From Methylovulum miyakonense HT12 (lineage in GTDB: Bacteria > Pseudomonadota > Gammaproteobacteria > Methylococcales > Methylomonadaceae), in contig NZ_KB913025.1 of assembly GCF_000384075.1 (NCBI RefSeq), positions 1,875,551 to 1,939,550 on the forward strand: a DNA stretch of 64,000 bases. The letters run 5' to 3'. This document shows positions 28,248-39,262 of this stretch, piece after piece (the first letter of the stretch is position 1; each line of letters begins with the position of its first letter). Below the pieces are notes generated by a model. That model ran no database searches and was not told the DNA's origin. It worked only from the letters and a program-made list of their open reading frames with translations. A program made the position numbers and the translations under genes.

Positions 28248-28523
28248 ATGTCCCTACTCGCCATCAAAGGAATTTACGAAAATGGTCACATCACCTTGGA
28301 AGAAAATGTAACAACCGACCAAGCCGTTGCGGTAGCTGTCACCTTTTTAACTGAAAAACCCGCCAAAATTGTTGCCAAAACCAGCTGGGAATCGTGGTTT
28401 GCTTCTATGAGCCAATTTTCTGACGATTTTATGTCCGATGGACGCGAGCAACCCCAAGCGCAGGAACAGGATTGGAGTACGGTAGGATGGGCTGACGCAA
28501 GGAAGCCCATCATCGACTGCTAG
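28248..28523 (+). CDS. small antitoxin-like protein with 3' end overwritten by a palindromic element
   Basis: A 91-residue protein. The N-terminus (LAIKGIYENGHITLEEN) resembles the beta-barrel start of DUF104/AF2212- or DUF2281-type antitoxins. The middle (SMSQFSDDFMSDGREQPQAQEQ) matches the tail often seen in such small proteins. The last 14 or so residues (GWADARKPIIDC) are translated from the palindromic repeat that begins at 28482, so the native C-terminus was probably lost. No toxin gene follows. Ribosome site GGAG is about 9 bases before the ATG. Family assignment is tentative. Confidence 0.6.
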   Translation: MSLLAIKGIYENGHITLEENVTTDQAVAVAVTFLTEKPAKIVAKTSWESWFASMSQFSDDFMSDGREQPQAQEQDWSTVGWADARKPIIDC

Positions 28524-28573
28524 GATTGATGGGCTTCGTACCTTTTATGCCCTTTGGGTACAGCCCATCCTAC
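28482..28573. mobile_element. 92-bp palindromic MITE-like element, copy 1
   Basis: Perfect 13-bp terminal inverted repeats, GTAGGATGGGCTG and CAGCCCATCCTAC, enclose inner arms (AAGCCCATCA / TTGATGGGCTT). It has no coding capacity of its own. It overlaps the 3' end of the small gene at 28248 and ends 58 bases before nasA. Its reverse complement shares order and wording with the element inside nasA (GTAGGnTG..CCC..GGCATAAA.GGT..GAA.CCC), so the two are one family. Target duplications are not obvious. Confidence 0.8.
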
Positions 28574-28631: not shown

Positions 28632-31367
28632 ATGACCCAAACCATCCAAACCACTTGCCCTTACTGCGGCGTAGGCTGCGGCGTTACCGCCACGGTCGGT
28701 GCCGAAAACCGCCAAGTCCAGATTAAAGGCGACAAAACCCATCCCGCCAATTTTGGCAGGTTATGTTCCAAGGGTTCGGCGTTGGGCGAGACGGTTGAGT
28801 TACAAGGCCGTTTGCTGGAACCGCATATCCACGGCCAACCAGCCAGTTGGGAAGACGCGCTGGATTTGGTCGCCAACACCTTGCTGGACACGATGGCCTC
28901 ACACGGCAAGGATAGCGTCGCCATTTACGGTTCGGGGCAGTTGTTGACGGAAGATTATTACGTCGCCAACAAGCTGATGAAGGGCTTTATCGGCAACGCC
29001 AATATCGACACCAACAGCCGTTTGTGCATGTCGTCGTCGGTGGCGGGGCATAAACGTGCGTTTGGGGCGGATGCCGTACCCGGCTGTTATGAAGATTATG
29101 AATTGGCGGATTTGATCGTCCTGATCGGCTCGAACACCGCGTGGTGCCATCCGGTCAGTTTCCAGCGCATCCGCGCCGCCAAGGAAGCCAACCCCAACTT
29201 GAAAATCGTCGTCATCGACCCGCGCCGCACCTCCACTTGCGATATTGCCGATTTGCATTTGCCGTTGGCGGCGGGCAGTGACACGATTTTGTTTAATGGC
29301 TTGTTGAATTATTTGGTAGGTTGCACCCTTGGAGGCATAAAGGGTGAGTGTGCGAACCCCGACAATAATACGTCCTCTGTTGGGGTTCGCACACTCACCC
29401 CAACCTACATTGACTCCGACTTCATCGACAACCACACCGAAGGCTTTGAAGCCGCCCTCATCGCAGCAAGCCTAGCGGGCGATGTGCAACAAGTCGCCGA
29501 ATACTGCCGACTCTCCGCCACCGATGTGCAGCAATTTTACGACTGGTTCACCAGCACCGAAAAAGCCATGAGCTTGTACAGCCAAGGCGTCAACCAATCG
29601 ACCAGCGGTACAGATAAGGTGAACAGCATCATCAACTGCCATTTGGCGACCGGGCGCATCGGCAAACCGGGCATGGGGCCGTTTTCCCTGACCGGGCAGC
29701 CTAACGCCATGGGCGGGCGTGAAGTCGGCGGCTTATCGCACCAACTGGCGGCGCACATGGATTTCGCCACCCCAGGCGATATTGACCGCGTGGCGCGTTT
29801 TTGGCAAACCGGCAATATCCCGGAACAAGGCGGCTTGCCGGCTGTGGCTTTGTTTGATGCGGTTTATGAGGGCAAGGTCAAAGCCGTGTGGATTATGGGC
29901 ACCAATCCGGTGGTCAGCTTGCCCAATGCCGACAAGGTCAAACAAGCCCTGCAAAACTGTGATTTTGTCGTGGTGTCCGATTGCATCGCCAACACCGACA
30001 CCGCCGCCTTCGCGCATGTGCTGTTGCCCGCGCAAGGCTGGAGCGAGAAAAACGGCACGGTGACCAACTCCGAACGGCGCATTTCCCGCCAACGCAGCCT
30101 GTTCAATGGTGCGGGCAACGCCAAGCCCGATTGGTGGATCATCTGCCAAGTCGCCCGGCGCATGGGCTATGCCGAGGCGTTCGCGTTCCAACATCCGGTG
30201 GAGATTTTCCGCGAGCACGCGGCTTTGTCCGGTTTTGAAAATAATGGCGGCCGCGATTTTGACATTTCCGCCTTTGCCGACCTTAGCCTGGCCGGATACG
30301 ACAGTTTCCAACCCGTGCAATGGCCTGTGAATGCGCAACACCCGCACGGCACGGCGCGGCTGTTTAGCGATGGACGCTATTTCACCCCCTCCGGCAAAGC
30401 CCAATTTATCGCCATCACCCCCAGGCCGCCCGTCAACCTGCCGGACGCCGATTATCCGCTGATTTTGAACACCGGGCGTTTGCGCGACCAATGGCACACC
30501 ATGACCCGCACCGCCCTCGCCAGCAAACTCAACCAGCATAAGCCGGAGCCGTTTGTGGAAGTGCATCCTGACGATGCGGCCGCCTACCAATTGCCACAAA
30601 ACAGTTTGGCAAGCCTCGAAACCCGCTGGGGCAGTATGACGGCGCGGGTGCAAATCACCGACAGCCAAATACGTGGCAATGTGTTCGTGCCGATGCACTG
30701 GACAGGGCAATACGCCAGCGACGGGCGTATGGGCGCGTTAGTGAACCCGGTGGTCGACCCGGTTTCCAAACAGCCGGAATGCAAGCACACGCCCGTGCGC
30801 ATCAGGCCTTGCCCTATGGCTTGGTACGGGTTCATTTTGTCGCGGCGGGAACTGGCGATCACTGGCTCTGATTATTGGGTGAAGGTCAAAGGCGAGCAGT
30901 TTTACCGCTACGAATTGGCAGGCCGGCAATTGCCGGAAACCTGGCAGGATTGGGCAACAACCCAACTGGGTGATGGCGGGGAAGTGCAATGGCAGGAATA
31001 CCAAGATAGCCACAACGGCAACTACCGTGCCGCCCGCTTTAATGACGGGCATTTGGACAGCATTGTGTTTATCGCTTCCCATATCAACCTGCCCGAACGC
31101 AATTGGCTGGCCAGCCTGTTTGCGAAGGATGGCTTGGGCCAACAAGAACGGCTCGCGCTGCTGACCGGAAAACCGCCGATAGGCGTTGCCGATGTCGGCG
31201 CGATAGTCTGCGCCTGTTTTAATGTCGGGGAAAAAACAATTTGTGATGCGATAAAGGAATTGGCCTTGAAAACCCCACAGGAGGTTGGCAAGTGTTTAAA
31301 GGCGGGGACGAATTGCGGCTCTTGTGTGCCGGAGATCAAGGCGCTATTGGCGGGGCTAAACACATAA
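28632..31367 (+). CDS. nasA: assimilatory nitrate reductase catalytic subunit
   Basis: A 911-residue molybdopterin enzyme that reduces nitrate to nitrite in the cytoplasm. The N-terminal [4Fe-4S] motif is CPYCGVGCGV..LCSKGSALG (residues 9-52). Molybdenum-domain marks are NSRLCMSSS, GSNTAWCHPV, VNQSTSGTDK, TGQPNAMGGREVG, WIMGTNPVVS and the dinucleotide region NTGRLRDQWHTMTRT. The C-terminus adds a BFD-type [2Fe-2S] segment (CACFNVGEKTICDAI..GTNCGSCVPEI). Residues 229-259 come from an inserted palindromic element and split the normal NYL...IDSDFI join. No good ribosome site is seen before the ATG. Cofactor supply is plausible from moaCDE at 51.6-52.9 kb. Confidence 0.95.
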   Translation: MTQTIQTTCPYCGVGCGVTATVGAENRQVQIKGDKTHPANFGRLCSKGSALGETVELQGRLLEPHIHGQPASWEDALDLVANTLLDTMASHGKDSVAIYGSGQLLTEDYYVANKLMKGFIGNANIDTNSRLCMSSSVAGHKRAFGADAVPGCYEDYELADLIVLIGSNTAWCHPVSFQRIRAAKEANPNLKIVVIDPRRTSTCDIADLHLPLAAGSDTILFNGLLNYLVGCTLGGIKGECANPDNNTSSVGVRTLTPTYIDSDFIDNHTEGFEAALIAASLAGDVQQVAEYCRLSATDVQQFYDWFTSTEKAMSLYSQGVNQSTSGTDKVNSIINCHLATGRIGKPGMGPFSLTGQPNAMGGREVGGLSHQLAAHMDFATPGDIDRVARFWQTGNIPEQGGLPAVALFDAVYEGKVKAVWIMGTNPVVSLPNADKVKQALQNCDFVVVSDCIANTDTAAFAHVLLPAQGWSEKNGTVTNSERRISRQRSLFNGAGNAKPDWWIICQVARRMGYAEAFAFQHPVEIFREHAALSGFENNGGRDFDISAFADLSLAGYDSFQPVQWPVNAQHPHGTARLFSDGRYFTPSGKAQFIAITPRPPVNLPDADYPLILNTGRLRDQWHTMTRTALASKLNQHKPEPFVEVHPDDAAAYQLPQNSLASLETRWGSMTARVQITDSQIRGNVFVPMHWTGQYASDGRMGALVNPVVDPVSKQPECKHTPVRIRPCPMAWYGFILSRRELAITGSDYWVKVKGEQFYRYELAGRQLPETWQDWATTQLGDGGEVQWQEYQDSHNGNYRAARFNDGHLDSIVFIASHINLPERNWLASLFAKDGLGQQERLALLTGKPPIGVADVGAIVCACFNVGEKTICDAIKELALKTPQEVGKCLKAGTNCGSCVPEIKALLAGLNT
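29316..29408. mobile_element. 93-bp palindromic element inserted in frame in nasA, copy 2
   Basis: Ends are GTAGGTTG and CAACCTAC. Inside is a perfect 19-bp stem, GGGTGAGTGTGCGAACCCC at 29342-29360 against GGGGTTCGCACACTCACCC at 29382-29400, with a 21-base loop. Length 93 equals 31 codons, starts on a codon boundary and has no stop in the sense frame, so nasA stays open. The encoded stretch is unlike any NasA sequence I know at this place. Confidence 0.88.
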
Positions 31368-39014: not shown

Positions 39015-39262
39015 ATCCCGTTTGCCGCGTCGAGCACCGCAGTATTTGACGGGAATAGCCCGAATACCCATAGGGCATAAAGGGGTGCGGCAAGGATGCC
39101 GCACGGAGGCAGATGGGCAGGAAGCCCATTCTGCCTCCCCCCGACAAATGCGAGGAGCGCAAGACATCAGCGGCAACCGGGCCGCCTTTTCTTTGGATAC
39201 TTTCTTTTGGCGGAGCAAAAGAAAGTATCTCGCTTTCGGGTGCGAGAACCCGATTAAATAAA
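39015..39262. repeat. dispersed non-coding repeat with strong hairpins
   Basis: This block contains phrases I recognise from a repeat found many times in gammaproteobacterial genomes (TAGCCCGAATACCCATAGGG; GGCCGCCTTTTCTTTGGATA). It holds a perfect 13-bp stem, GATACTTTCTTTT (39196-39208) with AAAAGAAAGTATC (39217-39229), and a smaller GGTGCGGCA/TGCCGCAC hairpin near 39084. ORFs on both strands (39022-39261 +, 38994-39218 -) are by-products. The ends are approximate because only one copy is in the window. Confidence 0.65.

Follow-up and report, generated by a model that had tools for sequence, protein, structure and literature searches.

An in-frame REPIN-like element in a nitrate reductase gene of Methylovulum miyakonense, and the occupants of the same loop in related species

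A palindromic element inside the nasA-like gene

The window analysed here is a stretch of 64,000 nucleotides from Methylovulum miyakonense HT12, whose genome forms a single contig of 4.69 Mb (G000 below; other G numbers denote family genomes and L numbers loci); the closest named records are from Methylobacter, Methylococcaceae and Methylomonas. It contains a nasA-like gene whose reading frame runs through a 93-nt palindromic element (Table 1). We consider this segment to be very probably a REPIN (REP doublet forming hairpins) that has been inserted in frame, i.e. a pair of repetitive extragenic palindromes (REPs) of the GTAG type.

NasA is encoded by a full-length open frame with four Pfam domains, Molybdop_Fe4S4, Molybdopterin, Molydop_binding and the BFD-like [2Fe-2S] domain; an earlier note on this DNA, made from the sequence alone, had named a molybdoenzyme as the host. 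The best NCBIfam matches score under the curated cut-offs, and several of the matches to families and to PDB entries are interrupted around residues 229-260. The element runs GTAGGTTG...CAACCTAC and is read GTA-GGT-TGC... through 31 open codons, so the 93-nt palindrome is present as the earlier note had described it, in frame on codon boundaries and free of stops. Its 23-nt arms, located by a repeat search at 29342-29364 and 29378-29400, are 96% complementary. As DNA the hairpin reaches -32.4 kcal/mol (z -8.77) and as RNA a predicted -55.3 (z -8.32); its stability is far beyond chance, as none of 200 shuffled sequences was equally stable in either form, and a very stable mRNA hairpin is thus predicted, as had been proposed.

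Several features place the element among the GTAG REPs. The tetranucleotide stands at the foot of a short palindrome, and two such units form an inverted pair with GTAG outside that folds into one hairpin; the family is multicopy and mainly extragenic, and genes for RAYTs (REP-associated tyrosine transposases) with adjoining REPs are present. The right arm is a complete GTAG REP (GTAG-GTTGGGGT-loop-ACCCCAAC), and the identical 30-nt REP of this sub-family at genome position 4004836 provides the uninterrupted form of the left one. Inverted ends, as in a miniature inverted-repeat transposable element, are present, while the target-site duplication that also marks that class was not seen at nasA (flanks TTATTTG and ATTGAC).

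Table 1. Features at the nasA locus (positions in the window; strand given where one applies)
Feature	Position	Strand	Remarks
nasA-like gene, 911 aa	28632..31367	+	assimilatory nitrate reductase with fused C-terminal BFD-like [2Fe-2S] domain
Very probable REPIN, 93 nt, head-to-head GTAG REP pair	29316..29408		NasA residues 229-259, peptide VGCTLGGIKGECANPDNNTSSVGVRTLTPTY
Left REP, GTAGGTTG + 18 nt + GGGTGAGTGTGCGAACCCCGAC	29316..29363	+	broken by the 18-nt insert
18-nt insert in left REP, CACCCTTGGAGGCATAAA	29324..29341	+	missing from the G006 element
Spacer / hairpin loop, AATAATACGTCCTCT	29364..29378		G006 has its reverse complement
Right REP, intact, GTAGGTTGGGGTGAGTGTGCGAACCCCAAC	29379..29408	-	G000:C1:1904929-1904958 (strict REP pattern)
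Second REPIN, other sub-family (GTAGGATGGGCT...)	28482..28573		overlaps 3' end of the upstream ORF
VapB-like antitoxin open reading frame (ORF)	28248..28523	+	last codons and stop lie within the 28482 REPIN
Micro-repeat, strict copy, ACCCAAAGGGCATAAA	28544..28559	-	right arm of the 28482 REPIN

Occupants of the loop in related genomes

Among the 237 family genomes searched, 151 have a NasA match at E <= 1e-60 and 86 are without such a match; the loop was read at 150 loci from 149 of the 151 genomes (G141 and G168 were not read). Two conserved anchors are separated by 27 nt at 139 of the 150 loci, and the 11 loci with other lengths all belong to the window's genus or the neighbouring genus g15, as do two 27-nt loops that derive from REPs. 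Named loci give the same picture (27 nt in 79 of 80, the exception being L105 with 9 nt); an insert of such size occurs in none of these 80 and most relatives lack the element, which is what the earlier note had asked of an insertion. The loop of the window measures 105 nt, 78 nt over the norm. The earlier note had taken NYL and IDSDFI to be normally adjacent, but in relatives five codons lie between them, where the element now sits; its count of 31 encoded residues is correct, the net gain being 26 because the 31 codons stand in place of about 15 nt.

Within the genus, 15 of the 20 genomes have NasA, and GTAG elements occupy the same join in seven of these, the loops being 105 nt (G000), 87 nt (G006), 81 nt (G019), 87 nt (G002), 96 nt (G011), 48 nt (G013) and 74 nt (G017) long. 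A 33-nt GCAGG... version is found at the join in G014 and G016, and the remaining six have no GTAG or REP-like sequence there (G001, G012, G015, G003 and G008 with 27 nt, G007 with 24 nt). In the neighbouring genus g15 a single REP-like sequence is present in G033 (27 nt), G068 (27 nt) and G066 (33 nt). The occupants belong to different families: the stem is GTTGGGGT in G000 and G006, GTACGC in G019, G011 and G002, GTTGGGAT in G017 and GCAGGC in G013. The GTACGC REPs are themselves a multicopy family, with 43 members in G019, 12 in G011 and 2 in G002 (control 0). A NasA tree of 44 rows requires four changes to account for the seven rows that bear an element, or at least three if only supported branches are counted, and we consider it likely that more than one insertion or replacement event has taken place at this loop. 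In another genome, a GTACGC-family REP (G102:C1:1241278) precedes the nasA match by about 45 nt.

All ten altered loops that are free of assembly gaps have lengths divisible by three (105, 87, 81, 87, 96, 48, 33, 33, 33 and 24 nt) and contain no stops, a count which overstates the evidence as the altered rows are related; the 74 nt of G017, whose element contains NN at an assembly gap, are not part of it. For 18 REPINs, including the two of the window, we examined three phases in both directions. Read in the phase GTA-GG., 9 of the 18 are open in the forward and 10 in the reverse direction, while neither of the other phases is open in any; the length is divisible by three in four of the 18. 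Since only GTA-GG. is open, we interpret the position on codon boundaries as what selection would leave behind, and not as evidence of special targeting.

The segment, which is presumably translated, was also considered in an AlphaFold2 model of NasA (50 sequences, mean predicted local distance difference test score (pLDDT) 87.0, predicted template modelling score 0.88). Residues 235-257, between helices 217-233 and 262-268, form the only run of at least three residues with a pLDDT below 50, a value that may be partly due to the small number of aligned sequences containing the insert, and confidence is high on either side. A periplasmic nitrate reductase structure (2jio) has its own residues at the aligned place. 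On this model the REPIN-encoded peptide is most likely a disordered loop, and it most likely has no function.

The element of G006, a close relative of the window's genome (96% identity over NasA residues 1-228), is inverted. It aligns to the window element with a score of 128.5 as the reverse complement and 94.5 in forward orientation, the spacer is exactly reversed and the flanks match; both orientations are open. Flipping is not a general trait, as two intergenic REPINs that have orthologues (1375927, compared with G019, and 3221289, compared with G006) keep their orientation. The elements of six other species of the genus, the inversion and the site in a second gene described below are visible only with other genomes, and so were not seen by the earlier note.

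Further in-frame inserts occur elsewhere in nasA genes. The G006 gene (L129) has two: a stretch of 68 residues made up of four repeats resembling GGAGSLPAAALPPSLG, and a palindrome of 11 residues, GACCTTTCAGGTTTATCAAACCTGAAAGGTC. Unrelated ones are found in L047:77-2800, where a palindromic insert of 30 residues contains CTGTGGGCGCGAATTTATT..., and in L118 (CCCCTCTCCC...GGGAGAGGG).

REPs, RAYT genes and a second host gene

The strict REP pattern has 80 matches in G000 (36 forward, 44 reverse), as against none for a control pattern written backwards, so that a single-copy sequence, the outcome named in the earlier note as speaking against its proposal, is ruled out. A further GTAG sub-family adds seven REPs for a total of 87, of which 83 were placed, at 66 places (the four left out are at 1807129, 1807176, 3139439 and 3987799). 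Strict plus/minus pairs are present at 16 of the 66 places, including 3682675, where a lone palindrome matches both strands. By a mechanical rule 62 places lie outside long ORFs and four inside, and among these four only the REPs in nasA and in the gene for pyruvate:ferredoxin oxidoreductase (PFOR) are convincing. The REP-carrying short ORFs at 857490 and 1368345 are doubtful and were not taken as decorated genes. Under a looser rule, by which every stop-to-stop frame of 110 codons was accepted, short frames enclosing some further REPs were picked up as well.

Five gene pieces in G000 exceed the cut-off of the RAYT model NF047646, and REPs adjoin them; RAYTs of this genome lie, for example, at 2058477-2059026 and 2602490-2603069. 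The start codon of another RAYT (near 777400; G000 777400-778888, L023) follows 12 nt after the end of a REP of the nasA sub-family. No target consensus could be extracted from the paired REPINs, a T before and an A after the element being found in just 7 of 16.

The PFOR gene of G000 (TIGR02176) carries an in-frame REPIN of the GATGGGCT sub-family, and the G002 gene has a REPIN at the same place, in the same frame and direction. Within the genus (L347 being unreadable at the site), 12 of 17 readable orthologues have the native 162 nt, the others being G010 with 165 nt, G015 with 163 nt (out of frame), G017 with 183 nt, G002 with 222 nt and G000 with 276 nt; four paralogues all have 162 nt. 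In the PFOR tree, G002 and G013 form one group (97/99), and another (92/96) contains G000, G006 and G019. As their spacers can be aligned, the elements of G000 and G002 are possibly of common origin. The G017 site reads GGTTGCACCCTATCGGGCACAAAGGGTG, resembling the left arm of the nasA element. In G019 the PFOR matches are split, with 111 nt in one open frame between query residues 187 and 200 (G019:C77:11928-12038), which suggests another in-frame insert.

Origin of the insertions, and a possible repeat nested within them

We are confident, on balance, of an account in which a REPIN landed in a tolerant loop of NasA and the frame was kept by selection. REPINs are non-autonomous elements, and their mobilisation is ascribed to RAYT (TnpA_REP) transposases; a RAYT is likely to have been the mover here, judging from what is known of the family. 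The REPIN would have landed in a length-tolerant, probably disordered loop between two helices, replacing native sequence of about 15 nt, and would have survived since its length is a multiple of three and it is open in the GTA-GG. phase. Within the genus it is likely that different REP families entered the loop on more than one occasion or displaced an earlier occupant; the flip in G006 probably arose by recombination between the hairpin's own arms. Selection on NasA would keep the frame and exclude stops, the peptide itself being probably a tolerated filler.

Apart from the relatedness of the altered rows and the possible effect of the alignment on the model, several points weigh against this account. 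The insertion is not clean, as part of the native loop is gone, and no movement was seen. A clean empty site was not found for intergenic REPINs either, when 7 of the 16 paired loci were searched in G006 and G019 with the element removed: two sites were occupied in the G000 orientation (one in each genome) and the rest were rearranged or one-sided. The sole RAYT found beside the nasA sub-family in G000 (777400-778888) is split by an IS1595-type transposase gene, and the flip is known from a single gene. The 3' flank of the G017 element resembles that of G000, yet their NasA proteins sit in separate clades, and interspecies recombination could bring the element across. The tree is compatible with repeated insertion as well as with a single old insertion followed by turnover or loss.

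The latter course, in which one insertion in the ancestor of both genera was later altered by gene conversion with other REPINs, by shrinkage and by loss, with no repeated targeting, is possible, though we incline somewhat against it. All occupied sites that were read fall in two genera, the near-identical ends of REPs would favour conversion, and G019 stands beside G006 in the NasA tree yet has another REP family, as expected from replacement; in two g15 genomes the REP-like sequence even keeps the native length. Supported branches nevertheless force at least three label changes, and the element-free G001 and G012 keep ALNQDYI like other genera, as if they had never been disrupted, while G011 has ALNADYI behind its element. 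Repeated hits would also be expected if the RAYT preferred this stretch, through a hairpin or GTAG-like target on single-stranded DNA, and the different REP families at one join, all read GTA-GG. or GTA-GC., agree with such a hot spot. So does the PFOR site, which is hit in G000 and G002 from different groups of the PFOR tree and where the native sequence has TAGG at the point at which the element's GTAGG begins (7 of 13 readable, counted by eye). We regard a hot spot as unlikely, since a filter for tolerated loops would by itself concentrate the survivors, the T...A flanks in 7 of 16 paired REPINs yield no target consensus, and the alignable PFOR spacers may mean a single origin.

Selection for the hairpin itself, as an invertible switch, an mRNA stability or pausing element or a protein-interaction loop, was considered and rejected as improbable: the hairpin is very stable, open both ways round and repeatedly present in one genus, but its sequence, length and REP family vary among most species, the six genus members named above do without it, and model confidence is lowest in the loop that it encodes. 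We likewise rejected, as even less credible, the idea that a 31-residue insertion within a conserved enzyme has inactivated NasA and marks a pseudogene in the making, because the full 911-residue frame and all four Pfam domains are retained, the lengths are multiples of three in the window and in all ten gap-free altered loops, and the flanking parts of the model are of high confidence. An annotation artefact was rejected as well, since the frame, the domains and the relatives speak against it.

The usual view of REPs is that of intergenic noise or of regulatory hairpins. Rickettsia palindromic elements are said, with reference to Ogata et al. in 2000 and 2002, to be mobile repeats that form translated, in-frame parts of conserved proteins; they share with the nasA element the character of in-frame palindromes and differ in their hosts, a comparison made from descriptions. 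The earlier note had seen in them the closest parallel, but the GTAG-REP/REPIN family with its RAYTs is nearer (PMC3733652, PMC3116915). In Di Nocera et al. (2013, PMC3733652), where REPs are stated to be mainly intergenic, GTAG REPs are described within ORFs as "REP-decorated proteins"; over half of these inserts are dimers or groups coding for 20-30 residues, and different REPs are reported at about the same recB site in Xanthomonas campestris and X. oryzae; the intragenic repeats of R. conorii are given there as RPE-4 and RPE-6 and grouped with CGTC REPs, not with GTAG REPs. The presence of GTAG REPs and dimers in ORFs is thus common to both studies. What differs here from that description is a series across the genus in which several REP families occupy one join, with short REP-like leftovers and an inverted orthologue; counts of frames and phases and a fold model are added, and the hosts are a molybdoenzyme and PFOR; the paper contains neither "methanotroph" nor "Methylobacter".

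Bertels and Rainey (2011, PMC3116915) defined REPINs and reported excision of doublets from population sequencing. The nasA element agrees with that description in its two inverted REPs, GTAG outside, spacer, single hairpin and accompanying RAYT genes, and differs from typical REPINs in lying within a coding sequence and in having an 18-nt insert in one arm. TnpA_REP is reported in another study to cut at CT or CA, GTAG taking part in the choice (PMC8266576). Coxiella QMITEs (PMC5896051) are miniature elements of which some genes contain in-frame fusions, the shorter elements being REP-like, while full-size QMITE2 has terminal inverted repeats and direct repeats of 7-9 bp; at the nasA element no direct repeat was seen. 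Among the matches listed in a search of the titles and abstract openings of open-licence papers, none concerned nasA REPs, methanotroph REPs or the 17-nt motif discussed below. REPs in ORFs are already known; the literature searched yielded no report of a loop occupied across a genus, of the inversion or of the nested micro-repeat.

In these genomes mobile hairpins appear to write peptide sequence time and again into a single loop of an enzyme of nitrogen assimilation, the frame being kept, other REP families taking over and one copy being inverted. The series of related genomes allows direct tests of RAYT insertion preference, REPIN stability and the tolerance of enzyme loops, and the phase rule from the 18 REPINs, by which only GTA-GG. 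is open, offers a simple search aid for more REP-decorated proteins.

We read the 18-nt insert at 29324 as a putative divergent copy of the dispersed micro-repeat TACCCNNNGGGCATAAA, whose strict pattern it fails to match. The window contains three such places (28544-28559, 29324-29341, which is the divergent one, and 39066-39081), and for the copy at 28544 the empty site, GTAGGATGGGCTG^AGGTACGAAGCCC, occurs elsewhere. The core ACCCNNNGGGCATAAA has 24 copies in G000 (control 0) and is found in 89 of the 237 family genomes, with a maximum of 51 copies in G079 and many single-copy genomes (counted by eye); its reversed control gives one match each in 10 genomes, also counted by eye. For 10 of 63 distinct contexts, representing seven different host sequences, the flanks were found exactly joined elsewhere, and for the other 53 no empty counterpart was found in the DNA searched; in a first version of this test the figure was 11 of 59, as against none of 400 random windows. 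The length removed is 17 or 18 nt, and a T precedes the core in 55 of the 63.

Taken together, these data raise the possibility of three nested levels, with a 17-18-nt unit (TACCCNNNGGGCATAAA) inserting precisely in loops or stems of numerous unrelated palindromes throughout the methanotroph family, a divergent copy of this unit within a REPIN, and the REPIN in frame within nasA, an arrangement that we put forward tentatively, as slightly short of an even chance. Should the unit indeed be mobile in its own right, it would rank with the smallest units of mobile DNA on record, and the loop in nasA would document naturally how REPINs are captured, inverted and turned over within an enzyme. The small dispersed repeats of cyanobacteria, reportedly very short units sitting inside other repeats (Elhai et al. 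are said to have described them in 2008), resemble the micro-repeat, by their description, as short dispersed units; the same repeat context with and without the unit, a feature of those repeats, is found here as well. The hosts of the micro-repeat include several REPs and other palindromes, and the flanks are able to form a helix of at least six pairs in 21 of the 63 contexts, compared with 76 of 2000 random places.

The strict copy in Table 1 belongs to the second REPIN of the window, some 740 bases upstream, which the earlier note had taken for a second copy from the family of the nasA element. It is of the same kind, i.e. two inverted GTAG REPs, but of another sub-family (stem GATGGGCT, as opposed to GTTGGGGT in nasA), and closer copies exist elsewhere. 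The VapB-like match of the ORF that it overlaps is weak and under the curated cut-off, with no Pfam match; no toxin gene directly follows this ORF, which is separated from nasA by only 108 nt.

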